DNA from: Basidiobolus meristosporus CBS 931.73
Lineage: Eukaryota > Basidiobolomycota > Basidiobolomycetes > Basidiobolales > Basidiobolaceae
Assembly (NCBI GenBank): GCA_002104905.1
Contig: MCFE01000162.1
Span: 84,956-148,955 of the forward strand
Length of the DNA: 64,000 nucleotides
Reading direction: 5' to 3'
Shown here: positions 49,061 through 64,000 of the stretch, in pieces
Numbering within the stretch: position 1 is the stretch's first letter
How the letters are laid out: each line of letters begins with the position of its first letter
Position numbers and translations under genes: made by a program
The notes under the pieces: model-generated
The model's database searches: none
Seen by the model: the letters and a program-made list of their open reading frames with translations, nothing else
Told to the model about the DNA's origin: nothing

Positions 49061-52000
49061 TGTTGTGCATCAACATACAAAACTCAGCCAATTATACTCC
49101 ACTTGAAAACTAGTACCCTAGCTGATTTTCCCTAACCCAAACATAACTAGTCCCAGTTATGGTTTATTTTACCCCATCTCAGAATCTGTTTGTAGCTGTC
49201 ACACCTGATCAATTTTCATGCGGTCATTACATCTTCAACTGATCTGCCAAGCCTTTCCAAGTGAATAGTCATTTGAGATCTATCCAAACACTTAGCAGTT
49301 GCCAAGTCATCAGCTGACTGATGATGCAATTTTTATTTATCTTATGTACCTATCAACACCCAAAATGATTTCAATTAATGCAGTCTCTTGGCACTTATTA
49401 CTTCAACTTGATCAGAAAAAGTATAAATAAAGCTTACTGAGTTTTTTGGCTTGATGTGTGTGTCAACAAAATTAAGATTGTGTCTCAGCAAAAATAAGAA
49501 TTCAACAATCCTGTTCTAGTTTCAACCAAAGCCTAGCATATCTAGCACTCCAAAGAACACCAAGCTTAGCCTGCCTAGCAAACCCACTTCATTGCCTTTA
49601 TAGCCAACCCAGCTATATCCAAGACCAAAACCAGACCAGAATCTTTCTTCTAATATTTCCACTACTTTCTGACAATTCTAAGATTCTGCATTTAATTGTC
49701 CCCTTGGTTCAGTTAAACCATTCAAGAGTTTTATTACACTTTTTTCAGGATTCAACATTTTTTTGTTGAATTACATTACATTCAACCACTTAGAAAATGT
49801 GCTCAGCAGCAAGCATCCCATACCTTTACATGTTGGCAGAAGCCCAAAGAAATCAAGAAGAGCTTACTGAGCAGCTTGAATACATTATGCTTGAAAGAAA
49901 TAACTTGATGCTTGAGCACTTTGAACTCATTTCTGTTACCTAGATGAATTTGGAATAATCAAAGAAGCTCTGGAGAATGTAGTCATAGTAATTGACAGCA
50001 TTGAGAATCCCCCAGCATTGCTCTGCAGCAGCCACAAAGAGGTCATGCCATTGGATCCTCCAGATCCACATCCCCCCTAAACCTGCTCAGGTGGTTGTCC
50101 CAAGATCCTTGCCTCTTTGTGCTGAAGGTGCCAATGCTATGAAGAATCCTACTGGGTTTCTTTACTAGTTCAGTCACATATCAGCTGCAAACCAGCTAGA
50201 CCATGACACCAACTGCGCTAGACTTCTGCTTCTCTGCCTCACAATGAAAGATGCTGACTGGGTTGAAGTGAATATTGCTTCCAATGGTATATGGAAAATT
50301 GGCCAAAACCTCTTTTGCAGCCATTTTGAAGATCCTCTGAAGAAAGCATATCTGAACTACAACTTATGGAAAACTAAGTTGTAAAAGGGTGAATTGGTGC
50401 AACACTTCTGAGATAGATCCCAAAGACAAATGAGATTAGCTTGAGTTAGTGATGATAATCTGTCACTTACTACTCATATTCTTTCAAACTTCTCACTGAA
50501 GCTACAGAGCAATATTGCTATTGTCAAAGCATGTGACCCTGCATGTACTTATGACAAGATCTCAGAGATATCTACACTTGCAATCACCTTCACTGCAGCT
50601 GTCAGCCAGACTTCATGCATCTCAACTCAAGATCCCACAACAACTGGAAAGAGGCCAGTCATGTGACCAAGAAGCAGTCAGCCACTTCCAAGCACTGTGA
50701 GCTTCACAGAAGATGCTATCATTCTACCAGTGAATGCAAAGGCATCTCCAAGCAATCAAACAAGTCAGGAAATACCACAGAGAAGCAGCAAAACACCAAA
50801 ACTGATAATCCATATGCTGATGATAAATGCTTCACATGTGGAAAGGTGGGACATAGATTACCTGCCTGTCCTGAGCAGAACTCTACACCAACAGCAAAAA
50901 TTACTCAGATTCTAGATGATCATTCAGCCAATAGTATGACAGGGTATGAGGAAGCATATGAAGAACTTACGGCTCAAGATTATCACACAATGTTTGAATA
51001 TCTGGCCAAAATTGCAACTATTCAAGAAAAGTAGCAACCAATCACACAGCTAAAAGTCATAGAGGTGCCACTCACCCTCAATGGCTCAATCATATGTTGT
51101 AATACTGGATATTGTATCATCCAACTGTATTTTATCACCCAATATAGTCAAAGAACTCAGTTTGGGGTTGAAAAAACAACCAGGAAAAGTCATACTTGCA
51201 GCTAAGGACTTCTTAGCCCCAAGAATTAGCACTACCAACCCAATCATCATACATTGTGGCTGAGTAAACATAATCCATCAAATGGAAGTTATTTAGATAC
51301 TAGATGGGCCTCAGGTAGTCATTGGTCTAGACACCTTCACCAAGCTTGGGTCTCATGTAGGTGGACTACAAGTTTCCTATCCAGGAATCACTAAATCTCA
51401 GCCACCCATAATGGATCAGATTCCAGAAATTGTCTCACCCCAACCAGAAGCAGAAGAGTCAACCCCAACTTTTCAAGCTTATTCTCAAATTTATCAAATA
51501 ATCAACTTATAGTTTTAGTTTTCCAAGTGTAGTACAACATTAGGATGAAGTTGATAGTTCCTGGATGTTTGGGCATGTACTTGCATGATACAGGTGAGTT
51601 CAAGGTTGTTGTGCATCAACATTTAAAACTTTGCCAATTTGACTTTGTTTGAAAATTTAGTACCCTGACTGTTTTTCCCTAACCAAAACCTAACAAATTC
51701 CAGTTCTAGTTTATTTTATCCCACCTCAGAATCTATTTTTAGCTATCATACCTAATTTATTTTCGTATGGCCATAATGTTATCAAGTTCTGCTAAGCCTT
51801 CCCAGGTGATTAGTCATCTGAGATCTATCCAACCACTTTGCAGTTGCCAATATATCAACTGATTGCTGATGCAATTTTCATTTATTTTATGCACCTATGA
51901 ACATCAAAATTGATTTCAATCAATCCAGTCCATGAGCACTTACTAATTCAACTTGATCAGAGAAGTATAAATACAGTTTACCAAACCTTTTTGCTTAGTG

Positions 52001-53654: not shown

Positions 53655-56600
53655 TTAGTTGACATCCTCCAACATTTGCTTGCTCACAAGCATATGATAG
53701 AACCCACGCTTAGCTAGAAGTTCTGCATGGGTTCCCAGCTCAATCACCGTTCCGTTCTTGACCACCACAATGAGATCGGCATTCTGAACGGTTGAGAGTC
53801 TATGCGCTATAGTGATGGTCGTGCGACCTTCGGATGCGCTATCCAGGGCGGCTTGAACTACCTTCTCACTTTCCGAGTCCAAAGCTGAAGTGGCTTCGTC
53901 CAAAAGAAGTAAGGTTGGGTTACGGATGATCGCCCGAGCAATGGCTACGCGCTGCTTCTGTCCACCAGAGAGCTGGGCTCCCTTTTGGCCAACGTTGGTG
54001 TTGTATCCATTAGGAAGATTGATGATGAAGTCATGGATGTTGGCTGCCTTAGCTGCCTCTTCAATGCGGCACTGTAGCACATTGGAGATCTCCAATGACC
54101 CATCGTCTCTTGTTTGGAGGTTGTTGATGATGCCATACGCGATGTTCTCAGCAATACTGCACCCAAATAGGACCGGCTCCTGCCCGACAGTGGCCATATG
54201 AGAGCGGAGATCGTTGAGGTTCCAATCGCGCACATCGATGTCCTCAACATTAACGGAGTTGGGCTTATAGGCACTCGCATTGGAATTTTCCCTTTGGCGT
54301 ACTTGAGTGACGTCATAGAAACGTTGCACCAGGGAAACTATTGTGGATTTACCTGAACCAGAGGAGCCGACTAAAGCAACGTTCTTACCGACTAGTACAG
54401 ATAGATCGAAGCCTTGGAGAATAGGGACTTTGGGGCGAGTGGGATATGAGAAGTAGGCATCGTCTACATCTACCTTGCCGGAGAAGGAAGCTGGAGGAGT
54501 TATCTTGGAGTCGGGTAATGAATCAATTTTGGGTTGACGATCAAGTAGTCGGAATATATCGCTTGCGGCAACACGGGCCCTCGAGATATTCCCGGTAAGC
54601 GAGGAGACTTGACCAACGGTGACTGCCGAGAAGATGACCGCAAATAGGACTTGCATCACTTTGGAGGAGTCATACTCTCCGGATTTGATGAGATGTGCAC
54701 CGTACCAGAAGGCGAGTGCATAAACCAGATAGATAGAGCCATTGGAGAAGCCAGTTCCTAGCGACGATACTATAGCACCTCGGATAGCGGTTTTATGGGC
54801 CGGAGCATTACGCTCCTCAAACAAACGTTGGAAGGTTTCTTCACGTGCAAGAGAGGCCACAGTTCGCATATTCTGCACACTCTCCGATGCGATCTGCGCA
54901 GCTTGTTCGTAGGTTTTCTTGGTTTTTTCGCTAAATCCAGTTAAAGATTTCATCTGAAGTACTGTGGCAATGATGAGAACAGGAACGCACGCCAAGACGA
55001 CCAGAGTCAACTTCCATCCATTCACGAAAGCAATAATGATTCCCGTGAGAAGACCAACAACAGCCTGCACGAGGACCCCCGCCAGCTTGCCGGCCAATTC
55101 TTGCACCATGTGTGCCTCAGTGGATAGCTTCGAGGTAAGCGCACCGGTACCGTTTTCTTTTTCATCGAAATACGCTACTTCCTGGCGGAGATAAGCAACG
55201 AAACTAAGGCTCCTCAATCGGCGTGTTAAACGCTCACCAGCGATATCAAAAAATGCTGTCTTGGAAAATCCCGAAAAAAACGAGACTATTCCAAGAACAA
55301 CAAACATCAGAGACCAGAAGTTGGCATCCTTCTTCATTTTCGATAGATCCTGGTTCGCAAATGCCTCCATAATGTATCTAAAGACAATCGAGAAGATTGG
55401 CATGATTGCTCCATCGATTGCTGACCCAATGGTTCCTATGACCAGCAAATACCATTCGGGTTGATTTAACTTGAAAACCCGGCCAAACGAAAAGTTTGAA
55501 CCGCTCTCCTTGGACTCCTTGCTCTCTTCAGACACAGCTGTGTACTGCGAAAAACGACTGGCGAGCTTGGAAATTGGGTCGACTTGATTCTCTCCTAGTA
55601 TGTGGCCAACAGCATCTACTGAATCCGCGGTAACCTCCTGCTCTCTCTGGTCTTCGGACTTTCTGAGCTCTTGTGCTCTCACCAGACCAGCATAGACTCC
55701 TTCTTGTGCAATCAGCTCGCTATGGGTACCCGATTCCACCATTGTTCCCTGCTGCATGACAACAATTAGGTCGGCATTTTTGATGGTCGAAAGACGGTGT
55801 GCAATCACAATGGTGGTTCTGTCGCGGGCCGCCTTGTCCAATGCATCCTGGACAATTCCCTCTGATTCCGTGTCCAACGCACTGGTGGCCTCATCCAACA
55901 ACAGGATCCTGGGGTTCTTGATCAACGCACGTGCAATGGCAATTCTTTGCTTTTGGCCGCCAGAGAGGAGTGCACCCTTCTCACCGACAAGGGTGTCGTA
56001 CCTGTCGGGGAGAGCCGATATGAAGTCATGGGCGTTGGCTAATTTGCAGGCTTGTTCCACCTCTTCGCGGGTGGGAATATCATCGTCGTTCCTGCTTCCC
56101 CACACAATGTTTTCGTAAATACTAGTACCGAATAGGACCGGCTCTTGTCCCACAAGGCCTATGCTTCTGCGCAGGTCCTTGATGTTAAACTCCTTGAGGT
56201 CGATTCCATCGATGCTGACTGTTCCTTTGGTAGGGTCGTAGAAGCGCTCCAAGAGCTGTACGCAGGTACTCTTTCCACTACCGCTAGATCCAACTAGGGC
56301 AACCGTCTGGCCTGGCTTAACTTGCAGGTTGAAATTCTTAAGGATTGGGACATCCGGTCGACAAGGGTACGTGAAACTGACGTCTTGAAACTCTATATAT
56401 CCTTGAAGAGATTTTTCTGGATTTGAGTAGTCTATGCGTCTACCTTCGTCTGAAGAAGGATCAATCCTAGATTGGCGCTCGATGATCTCGTAGACTTTGG
56501 CAGCAGCGCCTTGGGCAGAACTAATAGAGCTCATGTAGGGGGAAGCTGTACCTAGAGACATTGCACCGAGCATGAGAGAGATGATAACATTCAAAACTTG

Positions 56601-57542
56601 CTCAGAGGTCATCGTGTTATCATAAATCAGCCGAGAGCCGTACCAAAAGCCAAGAGCGTAGGTGAAATAGACAACCATCATCATGAGACCTAAACCAAGT
56701 CCCTCGAATATACTCCGCTTTACTCCAGCTCTTTGTGCTACATCCAGGTTGGCATTGTAACGGAGGATTTCACGTCTCTGGCTTCCAAAAGCATAAACTG
56801 TTTTGATGGAAGAGAGAACTTCGTCAGCGACACCTCCTGCGCTTGCATATGCTCCTTGTCCACCTGATGTGTTTTGCGTTACGAAGCGTGTCATCAATGC
56901 ACCGACTGCTGCTAGCAGAGGGAGGGCGGAAAGTAGAACCAGCGCCATCTTCCATCCCTTCACAAACGCTAAGACAAAGCCACCAATGAAGGTAGTAATA
57001 TTCTGAATTACAAGGCCGACCTTCTGGGATATCCCTTCTTGAATTATCGTAACATCACCAGCAATACGACTGGTAAGGTCTCCACTGGATCTGAAATCAA
57101 ACCAACTAATTTCTTGGCGAAGAATTGCTGCGTAATAATATTGGCGCATGCGTAGACATTGTCGCTCTCCAGTAATTATCCATAGAGAGGTCTGACCATA
57201 GGAGAGGGTAAAAGTCACCGCACCAAGGATTATAAAATAGATGACATTCTGGTTAACTTTCGAGTTAAATTCTCCAATTAGCACTGTGTCGGTTGTCGGT
57301 TGAAAATTCACAATGTCGGCGAGTATTTTGGAGAAAATAACTGTCATTAGAGGTAGTGTCGCTCCGGAACCTACACTGCACAGGGAGGCTACCAATATGA
57401 GAAATCGATCGATACCCGAGGAATAGCGGAATAATTGCAAAACTCCTATTTTCGTCTCTGCCTCCTTCTCATCGTTTGCTGGCAGGGAATGTTCGGAGTG
57501 CAATTTAAAGAAGGAGGATCTCTTTTCTTTATCCTCTGTCAT
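53655..57542 (-). CDS. Full-length ABCB (P-glycoprotein/MDR-type) transporter
   Basis: An intronless 1295-residue protein with two homologous halves (TMD-NBD)x2. It is an ATP-driven exporter of hydrophobic compounds or lipids, usually at the plasma membrane. The ATG at 57542 is the first in frame; the longer frame starts with GTG. NBD1 has VALVGSSGSGKST (Walker A), LVGQEPVLFGTSI, LLSGGQKQRIAIARAL (signature) and RILLLDEATSALD (Walker B), with the H-loop IVIAHRLST. NBD2 has the same set: GSSGSGKST, TVGQEPVLFGCSI, QLSGGQKQRVAIARAI, LLLLDEATSALD and ITIAHRLST. All catalytic residues are present in both halves, so both sites should be competent. Six predicted helices precede each NBD. A TATA-like ATTTAAATA lies about 40 bases upstream. 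It is the gene closest to the telomere. Confidence 0.95.
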   Translation of the reverse strand: MTEDKEKRSSFFKLHSEHSLPANDEKEAETKIGVLQLFRYSSGIDRFLILVASLCSVGSGATLPLMTVIFSKILADIVNFQPTTDTVLIGEFNSKVNQNVIYFIILGAVTFTLSYGQTSLWIITGERQCLRMRQYYYAAILRQEISWFDFRSSGDLTSRIAGDVTIIQEGISQKVGLVIQNITTFIGGFVLAFVKGWKMALVLLSALPLLAAVGALMTRFVTQNTSGGQGAYASAGGVADEVLSSIKTVYAFGSQRREILRYNANLDVAQRAGVKRSIFEGLGLGLMMMVVYFTYALGFWYGSRLIYDNTMTSEQVLNVIISLMLGAMSLGTASPYMSSISSAQGAAAKVYEIIERQSRIDPSSDEGRRIDYSNPEKSLQGYIEFQDVSFTYPCRPDVPILKNFNLQVKPGQTVALVGSSGSGKSTCVQLLERFYDPTKGTVSIDGIDLKEFNIKDLRRSIGLVGQEPVLFGTSIYENIVWGSRNDDDIPTREEVEQACKLANAHDFISALPDRYDTLVGEKGALLSGGQKQRIAIARALIKNPRILLLDEATSALDTESEGIVQDALDKAARDRTTIVIAHRLSTIKNADLIVVMQQGTMVESGTHSELIAQEGVYAGLVRAQELRKSEDQREQEVTADSVDAVGHILGENQVDPISKLASRFSQYTAVSEESKESKESGSNFSFGRVFKLNQPEWYLLVIGTIGSAIDGAIMPIFSIVFRYIMEAFANQDLSKMKKDANFWSLMFVVLGIVSFFSGFSKTAFFDIAGERLTRRLRSLSFVAYLRQEVAYFDEKENGTGALTSKLSTEAHMVQELAGKLAGVLVQAVVGLLTGIIIAFVNGWKLTLVVLACVPVLIIATVLQMKSLTGFSEKTKKTYEQAAQIASESVQNMRTVASLAREETFQRLFEERNAPAHKTAIRGAIVSSLGTGFSNGSIYLVYALAFWYGAHLIKSGEYDSSKVMQVLFAVIFSAVTVGQVSSLTGNISRARVAASDIFRLLDRQPKIDSLPDSKITPPASFSGKVDVDDAYFSYPTRPKVPILQGFDLSVLVGKNVALVGSSGSGKSTIVSLVQRFYDVTQVRQRENSNASAYKPNSVNVEDIDVRDWNLNDLRSHMATVGQEPVLFGCSIAENIAYGIINNLQTRDDGSLEISNVLQCRIEEAAKAANIHDFIINLPNGYNTNVGQKGAQLSGGQKQRVAIARAIIRNPTLLLLDEATSALDSESEKVVQAALDSASEGRTTITIAHRLSTVQNADLIVVVKNGTVIELGTHAELLAKRGFYHMLVSKQMLEDVN

Positions 57543-58334
57543 TGTGTAAATTGATAAGGTTCCGAGCCTTGGTTGGACGTTATTTAAATGCACGGTCCTT
57601 CACGAATTATCAGCATTATTCGAACTCGCTTAACACCCCGGAAAAACGGCGATCTGGAAATACGGAACCTAGCGAGATTACCCGATGTGGATAAATTGTC
57701 AAGATCTAGATACAACCCGGATTTAGCGTGGGGGATGCTAACAAATGGATGTCCCGATATTTCTCATGATTAACTCGCCAGGTGGAAACAAGCGAATTTT
57801 TCTTAAGAAACCAACTCATATTTGATAAGTCCATAAACAAAAGAAGTAGTATCAGGGGATAGTAAGATTATTTTCAACTATCAAATCATAATAAGAATAT
57901 TTCCACTTTCCCTTACATGATATTAGCATTTGGTCACAAGCACATGAAGCAAGCATTTCATTAACAAAGTGTTTTTTGCTATATATGGATAATCAGGGGC
58001 TAATTGAAAATCATTGCAACATCCGCAATTACTCTGTCATGATTTACTTCCAAGTTTGCCTACCAGAAGGAAAATCACTAGTAGGTCAAATCATTGTATA
58101 AACCAAGTCAACTGGGAGATGTTGAAGATCTGCATATTAAATTAAGATGCCTGTTTCTAGCAAAGGCTGTTACTTAGAGAACATAAAATATAGTGGCTAA
58201 GGGAAGTAATAAATCTTAGATAATGCTTGTCAATATAATGCATTTGACAGCAAAACCAAGGATTAGGGGATCAAAAAAAGGCATATGCACTTGTAAATAA
58301 CAATGCCATAATGAAAGGCAATGCGCAGCAGGTG
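57543..58334. other. Upstream region of the ABC transporter and AT-rich flank
   Basis: I see no gene. CpG-containing sequence ends at about 57.75 kb, where the terminal repeat zone begins. Confidence 0.5.
57581..57590 (-). promoter_or_regulatory. TATA-like box of the ABC transporter gene
   Basis: CATTTAAATA on the minus strand lies about 40 bases before the ATG at 57542. Confidence 0.35.
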
Positions 58335-58520
58335 TTGTAAGAGTTTTTGAGATATTGGAAGTGATTGGGAAAACAAGTGGATCATGTGGTTTCTCTCAAT
58401 GATAAACTGAATGTAAAGTTGCATATAAACATTTACAAGGTCTTGGCAAAGCAAATACAGAGAATAGGCTGAGAAAGCCCCCAAAAGCATGTGTATGAAG
58501 TTTATATCTGTTTAGGGATG
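58335..58520 (+). repeat. Subtelomeric repeat, copy of 42671-42855
   Basis: Direct-repeat partner of 42671-42855 (shared ATGTGGTTT, GGTCTTGGCA, GGGATGT). It abuts the first LINE copy of the terminal array. The single TTAGGG at its right end may therefore be chance rather than a telomere junction. Confidence 0.65.
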
Positions 58521-60690
58521 TGGTACAGTCACCAACAGGTAAAATCTTTATTCCAGTTGAAACAAAGAAGCCAGCGCTACTGCTGTAGCATTGACACAAG
58601 AGTGTACAGTTGAGGGGAATTTATAGGTAAGTCAACAAGGAGAGATGATAGGTCTTCAGTGCTCAAGACACTGCTTAGTGGCAAGGGGGGTAGCAAGAGG
58701 GGTAGCAATGCTTTGTGAACAATGTTGATAAGGGGAATATGATAAGGATTGATGTTCATCATAAAGGGAGTGTGTGGTTTCAATTTACTGCTACTAAAGG
58801 TCTTTCAAGTACTTCAGGAAGACCAGCTATGGTTTTTCTGACTGCAGAATATAATGAGCAAACTTCTTGACATTTGGATCTCCAAGTATAGTTCTCCAGC
58901 AGGAGCCAGGTGTAGGGTGGTGTGCTCTCCTCCAGGCCTTGATCAGTGGGTTGTTGCAGTGGTGAAGTCTAAGATATAATTTGGTTCTAAGGTAGAGAAG
59001 TCTGATTGTATTGGGCATAAACCCAAAAGCACCAAGACTAGCATGTCTGTAAGGGCATTCAGGCGGATGAGGCACCAAGGAGGTAATGTACCAAACTGCA
59101 AACTTGTCAAGCTTAGTGCAGTCTCTAGAAGTATGAGAGAGAAGTGGGAAGCCAAATCCCAGGACAGGGAAGACAAACTGCCTGAGTAGAAGGAGACAGC
59201 TTGGAGCTGAAGTTGTAGGAGGAGTAACAGCCAGTAGCTTGTGGAGTGCCTGTCTTGCCAGAATGATTCTCTTCTTCAGGTGAGCCCCAGAGTCCAGTCC
59301 AGTAGGAAGGAAAGGAAAGCTAAGACATATAGCAGAGACCTGATCAGGCAGAGTGCAGCTCTCTAAGTTGATAGGACAACCCAAAGGTACTGTCTTTGCA
59401 ATGGAAAGCTGGAGTTTACCCTTCTGCAGATACTGGTGGATAGTCTGGGAGTCTTGCTGCAAATTGAAGGAGGATGTTCTGATGTCATTAGCAAATAAAG
59501 AAACCAGGCAGTCAGCTGAGAGTCATGAGAAGTCATTCAGGAAGATGCCAAACAGTATAGGACCAAGTGCAGAGCCTTGAACTACTCCATTGGGGACTGA
59601 GAACACAGCTGATTGCGCACTTGGGTGCAGAATTCTTGCCTGTGGATCCAGAAACAGAGACCTAGCCAGCAGGGTGAGAGATGTACTGGAGAAGCATTGC
59701 AGCTTGGACCATAGCAAATTTCTGTCAGCTGAATCAAAGGCCTTATTAATATCAAACAGAACAGAGGGATACCTGCACTGGAGAGAGTGATCTTGACCTA
59801 GAATGACTGCATATTCCAAGGAGAGGCTGGGAACAATGCCAAATTGTGCTGGGTGCAACTTGAGGGTGTCAGAGTAGTGCTTCTGAGCAGTCAGAAGCTC
59901 AAACACCCCTTTGCAGGTGGGCAGCAGAGATATTGGCCTGCAGGAGCTGGGATCCAGGTGCTTTCCTTTACCGTTGTACAGTAGCAGAGCATTGGCAAAG
60001 GTCCATTTCTCTGGAGTAGAAAGCTCAGCTGAGCATTGCTGAAACAGTGGAAGCAGAAGAGCGGACATGGCCTTAGTACTAGTCTTCAGAAGCTCATAGG
60101 AGATTATATCCATACCTGGGACAGTAGAGTTGGGAAGCCTCTTGAGCACATTCTGGATTCACTTTTGATCAAGTGCAAGTGGGGTTGGCAGAGTCTTGAA
60201 ATCAGGATAAAAGCCAGGAGTTGAGTACTGCTTTGTAGAGAAGGAGATGTTAGCCAGCTGTTCTGTTGATGGTAACTTCCTGGAAGAGGGTCTCACTGCC
60301 CTGTAGAGTCTTGACACTGTTCTTGTTATAGAGTTGGAAGATTGCAGAGGTAAAGTGCTCATAATATGGTCCCAGAGCTGAGTGTATAGATTGTGGTGAA
60401 TTGCCCTGTAGTGGTGTATGGCTGTCAGGAGGAGCTTCTCTATTTTTGGGCTAGGAAAGCTCATGTAGCTTTGTTGCAGGGCAGAAACCATGGATTCCCA
60501 TTTTCTGGATGTTACAGCAGTAGTCTTGCATGGTGGTGAGAGGGAGGCAGAGACCAGGATCAGATGCTTCACAACAAACCATGCATAGTTGAGATCATCT
60601 GGTAGAGAAAGCAGCAAACTGGCAAGCTTCAAGTAGTTCCCAAAGTCCTTCTTCTGATTCTTGGTAGCTTTGTGGCTGAGCACAGTAAGG
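58512..60690 (-). mobile_element. Telomere-array LINE copy A (5'-truncated)
   Basis: Non-LTR retrotransposon, coding strand minus. Its 3' end (left) shows, on the coding strand, GGAATAAAGATTT, then a degenerate CACC..GGTA hairpin (58530-58541), then TTAGGG-like sequence. The 5' end is truncated: the open frame runs directly into TAAGGGTTAGGG (60686-60697). The 3' region 58530-58790 is nearly the same as copy C (62910-63175). Confidence 0.85.
58827..60683 (-). pseudogene. LINE reverse transcriptase, copy A, inactivated
   Basis: One continuous frame from 60683 to 58827 is interrupted by two TGA stops (at about 60159 and 59523-59525). Reverse transcriptase blocks read in order: PNSTVPGMDIISYELLK, PISLLPTCKGVFELL, VLFDINKAFDSADRNLL, NGVVQGSALGPILFGIFLNDF and LFANDI. 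The last is the catalytic xADD box with its first Asp changed to Asn. Upstream residues 60683-60160 are an unclassified N-terminal region; no endonuclease is visible in this truncated copy. A C-terminal thumb region follows (LLAVTPPTTS to KFAHYILQSEKP). The conserved tail KPHTPFMMNINPYH continues in another frame, so a frameshift is also present. Confidence 0.85.
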
Positions 60691-60735
60691 GTTAGGGTGT
60701 AGGTGTTATAGTAAGGGCTAGGAAAAGGTTAGAAG

Positions 60736-60806
60736 AGCAGGGGGTCTGGGGGATGCAGTCCCCTAGAGATTAAAAAAGCAGGGGGTTTGGGGGATGCAAT
60801 CCCCCA
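60736..60806 (+). repeat. Tandem duplication between LINE copies
   Basis: Two adjacent units, AGCAGGGGGTCTGGGGG at 60736 and AGCAGGGGGTTTGGGGG at 60778, each continue GATGCA(G/A)TCCCC. They lie in the 200-bp spacer between LINE copies A and B. Each unit is itself palindromic (GGGGGATGCA.TCCCCC). Confidence 0.8.
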
Positions 60807-60870
60807 TACTGCTCCCATACTCTTTAAATTCCTGTTGGATTACTTTTCTCTCATTCTTGGTTCTGGTCCC

Positions 60871-60901
60871 TTAGGGTTAGAATTCCTCCTCCTAACCCTT
60901 A
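60871..60901. repeat. Head-to-head telomere motifs
   Basis: TTAGGGTTAG (60871-60880) is followed 10 bases later by CCTAACCCTTA (60891-60901), forming a small palindrome of opposed telomeric repeats immediately inside LINE copy B. Confidence 0.8.
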
Positions 60902-60906
60902 TCACC

Positions 60907-62850
60907 TTAGGGGGGGGGGAAACCACCGGTTGGTGTAATCTTTATTGTCAATCATTGTAAAAATAAAGAAGTCAGAGATGGATTCTGGAGTCTTGTAACA
61001 TATTTGTACAGACACTTTGGGTTAATATGTAGATAGGTTGCTATTTCTTGTAGTTCCTATGCATTGAATGGAGTGTTGAGAGGGAGTGGCAGTAGCACTA
61101 GCAATAATAACTTATGATCTATGTATTGTGATGTGCTTTTGCCAATTGGTGATATAAAGCAAAGAAATGGGGTTTGCTGAGTTACATACTCTTGCCATAG
61201 TTGATTAAGATACTTGCTATATGCTTCTTTGGGGTTTTTACTCCCCTCTATTGCTTTGGCATATTGCTGGACTTTTGGGCACCCAATGATAATTGCCCAA
61301 CAGGAGTTATTTTGAAGCATCTTGCGAGAAATCCATGCATGTATCAACTCATTTGTTGATTTTTGGAGTTGAATACGTAGTCTTGTACAGAGGTACAAAA
61401 TTCTGATTGAATACGGGAGTAGTCCAGAAGTTGCCAGGACTGCGTAGTGATACTGTGTTGGTGGGGGCCATGGTAATAAAGTATAAATGCTGTGAGAAAC
61501 AAACTTATCCAGTTTTGTCAGGTATCTTGTTGGAATAGGCATTATTGCCAATCTAAACTCCAGTACTGGGAGCACAAACTGCTTGAGTAACAAGTGACAT
61601 TGGCTCAAAGGTATATCTGGTGGTGTAACAGAGACTAACTTGTGTAAAGCATGCCGTGCAAGTGCTATTTGCCTCCACACATGTGCTTTTACATCCAGAC
61701 CAGATGCAGTAAATGGAAGCCCTAGATAGCTGACAGTTTCTGCTGGGTGTAGAGTTTGAGAGTTCAGCATGATACTGCATCCAACTGGCTTGGTTTTTGC
61801 CATTGAGAGACTAAGATTGTTTTGTGTAAGGTAGCTGACAGTCAGGCTAGAGTCTTTTTCCAAATTACTGGAAGAGATACAAATATCATCTGCCTATAAA
61901 GTTGTAAGTGCAGAAGCTTCCAAGGCAGGAAAGTCGTTCATAAAGATGGCAAATAGTAGAGGGCCTAGTACGGATCCCTGCACTACCCCATTTGGAACAT
62001 CATAAGTGGTAGATTGCATATTTGGATGCAAAATGTAGGCCTTTGAGTCCTGATATAAAGCCATGATAAGAGCTGTAATTGAAGGTCCAGCAAAAGCTTC
62101 AAGTTTTCTCCCAAGTAGGTTACGGTCAACTGCATCAAATGCATGGGTAATATCTAAGAGTACTGCTGGATACTTGTTACAGAGTGTGTGGTCATGGCTT
62201 AGCATGACAGCCATTTCTAGCAAGACTTTAGGTATAAAGCCAAACTGATTTGCTACAAACAAGCCACTAGATGAGAGTTGCAAAGCAATCAACAGTTCCA
62301 ATACCTTTCTGCAAGCTGGTAAGAGGGAAACAGGGTGATAGGATTCTGCCAGTTTGGCTGAGCCTCTACCTTTGTATAGAGGAATCACCTTTGCAACCAG
62401 CCATTCTGATGGCATTTGCACATGTGAAATACACTGCAAATAGAATGGGAGCAATATATGTGCCATGGCAGCAGGTGCCAGCTTCAAGATTTCATATATT
62501 ATATTGTCATGACCTGGTGCGGTATTGTTGGGTAGCTTACAAAGAGTTGCCTCTAAAGTAGCTGCATCCAGGTTAATGCGTGAGAGCAATCTCTTGAAGT
62601 AGCTGTATAGGGCTTGGAGCTGTATATGTCTTGCACAAAGAAAGCAGCAGCTAAAAGATTGGGACTTGGTAGGTCTTTTGAAGCTGGCTGTAGAGCTCAA
62701 TATATTCTTGATATGCTTCTAGTGGTGTCTGCAGCAGTCTTCAGTGGTAGAGAGTGCATTATATGATTCCAGTAGGATGTGTGTGTTTGAAGATTTTGAA
62801 GTTTCACATATTCAACTGCATCATCCAATAGCTGCTTCTGTGAGGGGTTA
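60907..62850 (-). mobile_element. Telomere-array LINE copy B (5'-truncated)
   Basis: On the coding strand the 3' end reads AATAAAGATTACACCAACC, a CACCGGTTGGTG-type hairpin (60924-60935), then a C-run of nine and CTAA. The 5' end is truncated into CCTAACCCCTC (62842-62853). It is related to copy A, with a similar reverse transcriptase, but clearly diverged: its 3' UTR shares only the terminal motif. Confidence 0.88.
61057..62840 (-). pseudogene. LINE reverse transcriptase, copy B, inactivated
   Basis: One frame from the telomere junction to 61057 carries two stops. TGA near 62700 sits where copy A has Arg (SRIY*ALQP versus SRLYRAVRP), and TAG is at 61894-61896. Reverse transcriptase blocks: LPNNTAPGHDNIIYEILK, YHPVSLLPACRKVLELL, VLLDITHAFDAVDRNLLG, GVVQGSVLGPLLFAIFMNDF, and TTL*ADDICIS, where the TAG replaces the residue (Tyr or Phe) just before the catalytic ADD. 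Both Asp are intact. The thumb and tail (LVSVTPPDIPLSQCHLLL, QQTPFLCFISPIG, LLPLPLNTPF) match copies A and D. Confidence 0.85.
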
Positions 62851-62881
62851 GGGAATTGGCGATAGCTCTGGGACAGTGCAT

Positions 62882-63182
62882 TTAGGGGTTAGGGGGGGGG
62901 AGGGGGGGAGACAGTCACCAACAGGTGAAATCTTTATTTCAGTTGAAACAAAGAAGCCAGCGCTACTGTTGTAGCTTTGATACAAGAGTGTGTAGCTGAG
63001 GGGAATTTGTAGGTAAGTTAATAAGAAGTGATGATAGTTCATCAGTGCTCAAGACACTGTTCAGTGGGAAGGGGGGTAGCAAGAGAGGTAAGAATGACTT
63101 GTGAACAACATTAATGAGGGGAATGTGATAAGGATTGATATTCATCATAAAGGGAGTGTGCTGCTGCAGATATTGCTGCCAA
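62882..63182 (-). mobile_element. Telomere-array LINE copy C (3' end only)
   Basis: Copy C is the last about 290 bases of the A subfamily. On the coding strand the end reads AATAAAGATTTCACC, the hairpin CACCTGTTGGTG (62916-62927), a C/T tract with two long C-runs and CTAACCCC. The coding part keeps HTPFMMNINPYHIPL and the C-terminal tail ending LVSKLQQ. The 5' end is truncated at the TTAGGG junction 63183-63192. Confidence 0.88.
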
Positions 63183-63773
63183 AGGGTTAGGGAGGGAAAG
63201 TCACCAAGTTGGTGAAATCTTTATTTGAGTTAAGAACTAATCTAGGTACAAATAAAGAAGCCAATTACAAAGTCTAGAACCTCTCTAATAAGTAATCTAA
63301 TTTATGTTTTGTTTCATCTCTAATGTTTGTTTCAATAAAGTAAAGCTCATCAGGGGTAAATATAAAATTCAGGGGTTTTGGGGGAAGTACAAATTGTAGA
63401 TGTTTCTGATCAATATAATCCAAGACTGGAACCCAGCCTGGGATTAGGTGTAGTAGGAAAGGTGTGTGGACTTGTAAGTAGCTCTGCCATATAGATCTTA
63501 GATGGTCCTGAGCCAGTAGTCTTGGTATTTCAGCTTTTTGAAGTTTTGAAGCAAGCTCTGTTACTACAGCAGAGCCAACCAGGGTGTGCCAGCAAGAAGA
63601 TTTCAGGGAGGAGTTAGATTGAAGCCATTGTTTGATGGAGGGGTTATGTGATTTCTGAAGTTTGACTAGGAAGGAAGCACGGAGATAGACCATTCGGATT
63701 TGGTATGGGTAGAAGCCAAAGGCTCCATTAGTTGCATGGATATAGGGAGATACTGGAAGATAAGGTACCAAGG
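63183..63773 (-). mobile_element. Telomere-array LINE copy D (terminal, 5'-truncated)
   Basis: The 3' end: AATAAAGATTTCACC, hairpin CACCAACTTGGTG (63202-63214), then CTTTCCCTCCCTAACCC. The frame 63274-63771 (165 codons) is the intact LINE C-terminal domain (ATNGAFGFYPYQIRMVYLRA, VHTPFLLHLIPGWVP, FVLPPKPLNFIF, ending YLLERF). It runs open into the terminal telomere. It is a third subfamily distinct from A/C and B. Confidence 0.88.
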
Positions 63774-64000
63774 GTTAGGGTTAGGGTTAGGGTTAGGGTT
63801 AGGGTTAGGGTTAGGGTTAGGGTTAGGGTTAGGGTTAGGGTTAGGGTTAGGGTTAGGGTTAGGGTTAGGGTTAGGGTTAGGGTTAGGGTTAGGGTTAGGG
63901 TTAGGGTTAGGGTTAGGGTTAGGGTTAGGGTTAGGGTTAGGGTTAGGGTTAGGGTTAGGGTTAGGGTTAGGGTTAGGGTTAGGGTTAGGGTTAGGGTTTA
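63774..64000 (+). repeat. Terminal telomere, (TTAGGG)n
   Basis: About 38 perfect TTAGGG units run to the end of the window, the last bases reading TTAGGGTTTA. The G-rich strand runs 5'-3' toward the end, so this is a true right-hand chromosome terminus. Confidence 0.98.

Follow-up and report, generated by a model that had tools for sequence, protein, structure and literature searches.

Apparently telomere-targeted LINE arrays and tail-sharing passenger elements at contig ends of Basidiobolus meristosporus

Introduction

Why should four truncated retrotransposon copies stand head to tail, on one strand and joined by single telomeric hexamers, between the last gene of a fungal contig and its telomere? 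The question is raised by a stretch of 64,000 nucleotides from Basidiobolus meristosporus CBS 931.73 (the window, below), whose right end is the end of contig C383 (MCFE01000162.1, positions 84956-148955 of 148955). The four copies are long interspersed nuclear elements (LINEs) of three families, here named A, B and C. A sequence-only reading of the window had proposed an undescribed telomere-targeting LINE family, and the present analysis follows that proposal through the whole assembly of 1,311 contigs, from a strain sequenced with PacBio (PMC7466969). We assign a probability of about 0.82 to the following account: A, B and C would be autonomous telomere-specific LINEs that, together with passenger elements, insert by target-primed reverse transcription (TPRT) onto the G-rich strand, with the second open reading frame (ORF2) expressed by readthrough and the passengers mobilised in trans.

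The array at the contig end

From the centromere side outward, the window ends in an ATP-binding cassette (ABC) transporter ORF, an interval free of long ORFs, copy A1, a repeat of 220 bp, copy B, copy A2, copy C and the telomere. All four LINE copies (n=4) are 5'-truncated, code on the - strand and turn their 3' ends inward. Single-unit TTAGGG joins occur at 58512-58517, 60692-60697, 62848-62853, 62882-62887, 62889-62894 and 63187-63192, and within the window all 36 matches of tandem TTAGGGTTAGGG (0.01 expected) fall in the terminal tract. The features are as follows; RT stands for reverse transcriptase, and joins and tracts were read directly from the sequence.

58512-58517, +: innermost TTAGGG unit, on the centromere side of copy A1
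58525-60689, -: LINE family A, copy A1, old and 5'-truncated, RT and C-terminal part with in-frame stops, 90.3% identity to the young reference copy
60689-60697, +: telomeric join GGGTTAGGG at the 5' truncation of copy A1
60698-60917, no strand assigned: other subtelomeric repeat, starting TGTAGGTGTTATAGTAAGGG, containing TTAGGG at 60872-60877 and 60908-60913
60918-62841, -: LINE family B, 5'-truncated, RT and C-terminal domain with one in-frame stop near 61893 (RVT_1 E 2.7e-15)
62842-62853, +: telomeric join on the 5' side of copy B, TTAGGG at 62848-62853
62882-62894, +: TTAGGGGTTAGGG tract preceding copy A2
62909-63185, -: LINE family A, copy A2, young, 277-bp 3' end only, 99.6% identity to the young reference copy
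63184-63192, +: telomeric join GGGTTAGGG between copies A2 and C
63193-63773, -: LINE family C, 5'-truncated, the C-terminal 166 codons of ORF2 open (sequence comparison)
63771-63998, +: terminal telomere, 38 units of TTAGGG (AGGGTT), to the contig end (tandem repeat reading)
62908-62953, -: two-hairpin 3' tail of copy A2, the family A example (fold z -4.01)
60920-60972 (B) and 63195-63257 (C), -: two-hairpin 3' tails of copies B and C (fold z -2.35 and -3.93)
53655-57599, -: last gene before the array, an open frame of 1314 codons named by eye from its sequence as a multidrug-type ABC transporter with two halves

The sequence-only reading had described an array of four same-orientation, 5'-truncated copies from three subfamilies, lying between the last gene and the telomere with a constant coding strand and centromere-facing 3' ends. 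All of this stands: A1 and A2 belong to family A, the ABC transporter ORF and the terminal tract bound the array, and the description was even understated. Its junction coordinates were good to a few bases and missed the two TTAGGG units before B. LINE copies do make up the array as described, except that 60698-60917 is a separate repeat and that copy A1 is broken by its in-frame stops. The repeat, starting TGTAGGTGTTATAGTAAGGGCTAGG, was also seen after telomeric joins and beside LINE ends at loci L018, L028 and L074.

Position and strand across the assembly

Distances to contig ends were obtained from about 30 contigs of known size and by interpolation for the rest, with a leave-one-out median error of 641 bases and a largest error of 21.7 kb. 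An RT search for family A gave 671 candidates, and among the best 150, which were scored, 139 lay on the - strand, 143 had the 5' side within 10 kb of a contig end, and 10, on short contigs, had the 3' side within this distance. We then kept only contigs above 50 kb, which removed 36 family A rows, 42 family C rows and 33 matches of a control. On these contigs the 5' side of family A lies within 10 kb of an end in 110 of 114 copies and the 3' side in none of the 114, with about 9% expected per end. Family C behaves alike (best 150 of 1,193 candidates): its 5' side falls within 10 kb in 94/108 and within 20 kb in 106/108 copies, its 3' side in 0/108. For family B, five close matches (74-93%) exist beyond the window copy, four with the 5' side within 4 kb of an end and one at 11 kb; the other 135 rows of that search match at 49-52%, many of them at family A sites.

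The control was a Ty3-like integrase of a long terminal repeat (LTR) element residing in one array. It yielded 102 matches, some of them one element split, from 99 of 3,584 candidates scored. On contigs above 50 kb its 5' side was near an end in 15 of 69 matches, its 3' side in 10 and neither in 44, with about 6 expected per side, and 56 of all 102 matches lay on the - strand, which is no clear preference. Telomere targeting is thus supported genome-wide by position, strand and junctions, against a scattered LTR-element control. The sequence-only reading had named a majority of copies away from telomeres as the outcome that would speak against it, and the family A counts show the opposite.

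Runs of six TTAGGG units number 6,568 on the forward strand against 68 on the reverse, which implies that most telomeric contigs are oriented with the telomere at the right. At about 30 matches per tract, a rough estimate gives some 200 telomeric contig ends, and hence a high chromosome number or separated haplotypes. Two internal arrays, L067 (C558:94700-99600) and L068 (C726:55700-60000), contain the same families and TTAGGG joins with the 5' side far from an end; they are possible relics of telomere fusion or inversion, or a misassembly. Genes for a flavin adenine dinucleotide (FAD) oxidase, with similar scores and 81% identity to protein P0078, were seen at C383:125003-126289, C406:122983-124269, C520:86181-87467 and C1003:30161-31447, about 11-23 kb from the right contig end (two of the contig sizes being interpolated), which suggests subtelomeric blocks common to several chromosomes. 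The FAD oxidase of the window also has a relative with 75% identity from this strain, matched at C669 with 100% identity over residues 127-444 and in two further pieces at 88% and 98%, the lower value perhaps owing to intron edges.

Junctions with TTAGGG and copy age

The tail motif GGTNNAATCTTTATT, found at the 3' ends of these elements, has 1,616 + 172 = 1,788 matches in the assembly, compared to 1 + 2 = 3 for its reversed control. A search for TTAGGG within 30 bases before the tail hairpin gave 1,878 + 112 matches and 0 in the control, an inflated number since one end can be matched from several TTAGGG units. When counted per junction, a telomeric hexamer occurs in the 52 nt upstream in 65 of 73 cases. 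We also read 86 3' ends base by base (families A, C, D, E and F, unmutated starts only, outside loci L031-L060, L001 and L073; D, E and F are the passengers described below). At least one full TTAGGG stands directly before the G run in 68/86 ends, the median tract comprises 7 telomeric bases, and three ends have none beyond the G's.

For the 5' side, 98 copies were examined; once copies running off their locus and repeated junctions had been dropped, 70 distinct junctions could be read, of which 56 have a TTAGGG tract within 8 nt. For the truncated LINE junctions with a tract (n=37), element and tract overlap by 1.95 nt on average, compared to 0.76 nt in simulation, a value unreached in 5,000 draws; telomeric seeds have likewise been reported for 17 of 23 MoTeR truncations in Magnaporthe (PMC7367193). 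Internal tracts mostly measure 6-15 bp, perfect terminal runs reach 156-228 bp, and terminal (TTAGGG)n follows several arrays.

Identity to the reference copy is at least 99% in 42 of the 51 family A copies of at least 100 bp, and being near-identical these copies are recent. Those below 96% are the innermost A copy in all five loci that also hold a younger one (the window, L011, L026, L067 and L072), the reference copy itself being distal. An age gradient as proof of outward growth was rejected, as it is weak in family C.

Protein anatomy and relationships of family A

A young family A copy consists, from 5' to 3', of 99-bp tandem monomers (eight at C370, one at C713), a leader containing CCCTAACCCTAA, ORF1, ORF2 and the tail. 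ORF1 measures 523 codons between stops; its first Met is at position 22, and it contains a CPNC...CKC motif. ORF2 has 922 codons, and its frame is intact in many copies. As in LINE RTs, its RT domain (RVT_1 E 2.6e-25) carries FADD, at 618, and the copies show the 5' truncation and common 3' end of LINEs. The closest solved structures are the LINE-1 ORF2p (E 1.3e-21, with alignment) and 8c8j, an 'RNA-directed DNA polymerase', followed by R2 proteins.

The N-terminal part of ORF2 contains the nuclease motifs LNCN (Asn at 7), GDLN125, VDW170 and SDH200, and residues D126, N128, D171, S200, D201 and H202 are invariant in an alignment of five sequences. From these motifs the nuclease looks similar to the apurinic/apyrimidinic endonuclease (APE) type, and that of the relative P0005 is barely over the PF14529 cut-off (27.5 vs 27.4 bits). 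Motifs of a restriction-like endonuclease (CCHC-like, RHD, PD) gave 0 pattern matches in family A ORF2, the family to which this search was applied, and a Pfam search of the same protein returned no restriction-like endonuclease hit. An endonuclease of the MoTeR type (CRE clade) was therefore rejected for family A on the negative pattern search.

In an RT tree of 77 rows built by a quick method, families A, B and C and five database proteins form one group with a Shimodaira-Hasegawa-like approximate likelihood ratio (SH-aLRT) support of 100 on a stem of 1.46; the tree contained no named clade references (R1, TRAS/SART or Zepp sequences). The five proteins are 48-80% identical to family A, and within the group A pairs with P0002 (99) and C with P0005 (100). 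If these proteins come from other species, the three families are older than the split of their hosts. In the searched literature, which did not extend to subscription papers, we found no description of a telomeric LINE of Basidiobolus: PMC7466969 contains no word beginning with 'telomer', and PMC12857005 and PMC8381367 do not name Basidiobolus. Within these bounds, and with the RTs in their own long-stemmed group, the earlier label 'undescribed' holds.

Predicted expression of ORF2 through UGA-CUA

In family A, the stop of ORF1 is TGA, the next codon is CTA, and ORF2 carries on without a change of frame. This was found at 20/20 places located with a 20-base seed from the ORF2 start and having enough upstream sequence; 18 are identical, one has a single upstream change and one is truncated by CCCTAA just upstream. 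The 20 copies are near-identical, so this conservation alone shows no selection. However, no Met precedes residue 142 of ORF2, which leaves 141 codons without an AUG and places that Met beyond two of the nuclease motifs, and the preceding stretch is identical to P0001 at 74/139 positions and thus very probably translated. In the fungus Ustilago maydis, UGA followed by CUA sufficed for efficient readthrough (PMC4207609). Across the 4,200 nt of ORF1-ORF2 there is a single perfect 7-bp stem with a loop of 3-8 nt, and it begins 12 nt downstream of the UGA stop. We therefore predict from these sequence features that family A ORF2 is made by UGA-CUA readthrough.

Production of ORF2 from an internal AUG or by reinitiation instead, which we consider unlikely, has precedents in the termination-reinitiation used by SART1 and proposed for L1 (PMC5972666), and P0001 has a Met right at its ORF2 start, so that this relative may use another way of ORF2 expression. 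The fold after the stop is also not outstanding overall (60-nt window, z -1.89, rank 51 of 592 windows), and an outstanding RNA structure around the readthrough site was rejected as a whole fold, the hairpin position alone standing out. What speaks against internal initiation in family A is the late Met with its translated-looking upstream stretch, together with the Ustilago precedent and the unique hairpin. For family C at C380, part of ORF1 (247300-248398) is in frame with a 949-codon ORF2 at a distance of 3,660 bases. If ORF2 is a readthrough product, this adds an expression mode of LINEs to the reinitiation and 2A cases (PMC5972666).

A shared 3' tail and the passenger elements

All six families, A to F, end in one type of 3' tail with two hairpins. 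A long hairpin (CUUUAUUU...AAAUAAAG) comes first and is separated by a short linker from a CACC...GGUG hairpin, which is followed by C's. Compared to shuffled sequences, the z scores are -4.01 (A), -2.35 (B), -3.93 (C), -3.60 (D), -3.00 (E) and -3.29 (F); one stem pair differs between A (C-G) and C (G-C).

Element D is 518 bp long with a longest open frame of 59 codons. Short, non-coding and sharing its tail with LINEs of the same genome, it has the features of a short interspersed nuclear element (SINE). Its sharp 5' end, CCAAGAACAC, has 214 exact matches and 0 in the control, and among 100 full-length 5' ends listed of these 214, TTAGGG lies within 6 nt beyond the end in 94 (lists compared by eye). 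Boxes resembling those of RNA polymerase III promoters, TAGCCTTGTGG and GGTTCAAATCC, were recognised near the 5' end by eye against the consensus. A tRNA-derived head found no support: ARAGORN reported 0 tRNAs and the Rfam search no tRNA family. A telomere-confined SINE would offer a clean test of tail-dependent mobilisation in trans.

Element E is composed of 101-bp monomers (5.5 copies), an open frame resembling ORF1 (242 codons at L061) and the tail. Its protein is 35% identical over 162 aa to family A ORF1, and no ORF2 was seen among the copies read. A chimeric origin of E with a Ty3-like LTR element (C2:258270-259800) was rejected because the first 161 bp are common to E copies and the remainder matches elsewhere on both strands. 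Locus L072 (C2:253600-259800) has a Ty3-like LTR element inside or beside the E copy of an array. Tail family F (CACCAAAGGGTG) was seen twice, at L014:408-480 and at L067. Elsewhere in the window, 22-bp repeats (AATCTCAATTTTGCTGAGACAC and kin) at 110-154, 1417-1459 and 49457-49499 resemble a stretch of an LTR element at about C2:257885-257930 and are probably LTR remnants.

Proposed mechanism and alternative explanations

In the mechanism that we propose, the RT would bind the tail hairpins, and the C-rich RNA 3' end would pair with GGG at a TTAGGG 3' end cut by the element's own endonuclease. The cDNA would then be the G strand, continuing from TTAGGG outward, and its truncated end would be joined or healed with TTAGGG via about two bases of telomeric microhomology, telomerase keeping the cap. 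Passengers D (SINE-like), E (ORF1 only) and F would move in trans by carrying the tail. Extra G's are found between TTAGGG and the element, which would fit slippage of the C-ended RNA on the GGG primer end. A telomerase gene is present at C880, where Telomerase_RBD was found in two pieces (40.5 and 34.7 bits, cut-off 25), one of them holding a TAG; the encoded telomerase presumably makes the caps.

Several observations weigh against this account. The insertion mode is read from standing copies. Contig sizes are mostly interpolated, with a worst test error of 21.7 kb; the LTR element used as control is also somewhat enriched at ends (15 and 10 vs about 6); and a few family A copies are internal (C558 and C726, and also C646 and C473, more than 20 kb from an end). 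At the junctions, telomeric tracts on the proximal side are very short, with a median of 7 bp and just 1/86 of at least 18; 14/70 distal 5' junctions have no tract (including short E tails cross-matching family C), and 6 of the 100 listed D 5' ends lack TTAGGG within 6 nt. Family C shows only a weak age gradient (rho -0.18, P 0.054). Finally, the family A nuclease scores under the Pfam cut-off for PF14529 (20.9 vs 27.4 bits). APE-type nucleases usually carry a Glu; family A reads LCLIDVQ at that stretch, where a Glu was not seen.

The primer may be an internal nick or a terminus: the conserved nuclease residues favour a nick and the one-unit spacers favour eroded ends. Terminal attachment without a nick, by which the RT would extend an eroded overhang keeping about one TTAGGG, telomerase would cap the cDNA and the next erosion would admit the next element, is a real possibility to which we give somewhat less than even odds. 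It accounts well for spacers of about one repeat between neighbours next to far longer terminal runs, for the innermost position of the diverged family A copies in 5/5 loci, and for the distal microhomology, which resembles that at MoTeR truncations (PMC7367193). SART1 requires at least three telomeric repeats (PMC7265360), and compared with this need the short proximal tracts fit terminal addition better than nicking in a long array. However, the six invariant residues are hard to explain without a need for nicking, interstitial tracts may shorten later (in MoTeR arrays, spacers of half a unit up to more than 20 units occur; PMC7367193), and the gradient in family C is weak. Were terminal attachment true, telomere maintenance would be divided between LINE and telomerase. 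A mixed system, with telomerase and a LINE community alternating on the same TTAGGG ends, the RT priming on eroded ends, the array acting as a buffer, telomere SINEs and ORF1-only partners parasitising a single code of tail recognition, and ORF2 made by readthrough, is offered as a tentative extension that we hold to be rather improbable in this full form.

Two further explanations dispense with targeting. Random LINE insertion with retention and spread at ends by subtelomere recombination could draw on the likely sharing of subtelomeres, exemplified by the FAD-oxidase genes near the ends of C383, C406, C520 and C1003, and exchange would multiply copies. It would give neither 3' ends after TTAGGG in 68/86 cases nor one strand (139/150 on -, with telomeric runs 6,568 forward vs 68), and truncation points vary between copies while mostly being joined to TTAGGG, which leaves it very improbable. 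Gathering of repeats at contig ends, where assemblies break, would suit the 1,311 contigs and the somewhat elevated LTR control. Breaks, in contrast, yield no constant orientation, no terminal (TTAGGG)n after several arrays and no TTAGGG inside arrays, and the matches of the LTR control favour neither strand clearly (56/102 on -); to an assembly effect we give practically no credence.

Comparison with known telomeric retroelements

Few lineages are known to harbour telomere-targeted LINEs; among fungi, the MoTeR and FoTeR elements carry restriction-like nucleases (PMC7367193, PMC12857005). Basidiobolus apparently represents a separate fungal solution, with an APE-like nuclease, 1,788 countable tails and a telomerase gene. 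With dozens of near-identical recent copies that differ in their truncation points, sequence alone can be used to study where priming occurs, how cDNA ends are healed and what code the tail carries, and the fungus is a good system for how retroelements and telomerase use the same DNA ends.

The sequence-only reading had named TRAS/SART, MoTeR and Zepp as parallels. MoTeR matches the array layout and TRAS the strand; membership in the MoTeR group fails, as no restriction-like endonuclease motif was found in family A ORF2 and its nuclease looks APE-like. Like the Basidiobolus elements, MoTeR1 and MoTeR2 of Magnaporthe are fungal telomeric LINEs arranged head to tail with the 5' end outward and short (TTAGGG)n between them, having 5' truncations with telomeric seeds, a non-autonomous partner with common termini, and LTR elements inside the arrays (MAGGY there, the Ty3-like element at L072 here) (PMC7367193). 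The FoTeRs of Fusarium are fungal telomeric LINEs as well (PMC12857005). In contrast to the C-terminal restriction-like endonuclease of MoTeR and FoTeR, the Basidiobolus elements have an N-terminal APE-like nuclease and a separate ORF1; they also differ by three autonomous families and at least two kinds of passengers, and none of the copies read shows a long 5' tract resembling TTTGGG.

Athena and Coprina, telomere-associated Penelope-like retroelements, are known from fungi too. The Basidiobolus elements are unlike them in their LINE-type RT with nuclease motifs, the closest structure being LINE-1 ORF2p. HeT-A and TART maintain Drosophila ends without telomerase. Element E resembles HeT-A, which is reported to be an ORF1-only partner, and end extension by RT corresponds to the terminal attachment model above; a telomerase-less system of the Drosophila type was rejected here, given the TTAGGG tracts and the Telomerase_RBD match at C880. 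Zepp of Chlorella also stacks LINE copies at a telomere (PMC10088271), a likeness by description.

TRAS and SART of Bombyx (R1 clade) have an APE-type nuclease and two ORFs, and the 3' end of TRAS is poly(A). As here, their target is the telomeric repeat, and the strand here is the TRAS strand. The TRAS1 nuclease nicks TT^AGG (PMC7265360), so that the geometry here is TRAS-like with a different join site, after GGG instead of between T and A. The 3' end here is a hairpin followed by C's, in contrast to the poly(A) of R1-clade elements such as SART1 (PMC7265360), and ORF2 is expressed by predicted readthrough in a fungal host, compared to the overlapping stop-restart site of SART1 (PMC5972666). 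Telomere-targeted LINE arrays are therefore a known kind of system, to which Basidiobolus adds a clade of its own, an APE-like nuclease in a fungal element, predicted readthrough, tail-sharing passengers and its scale.

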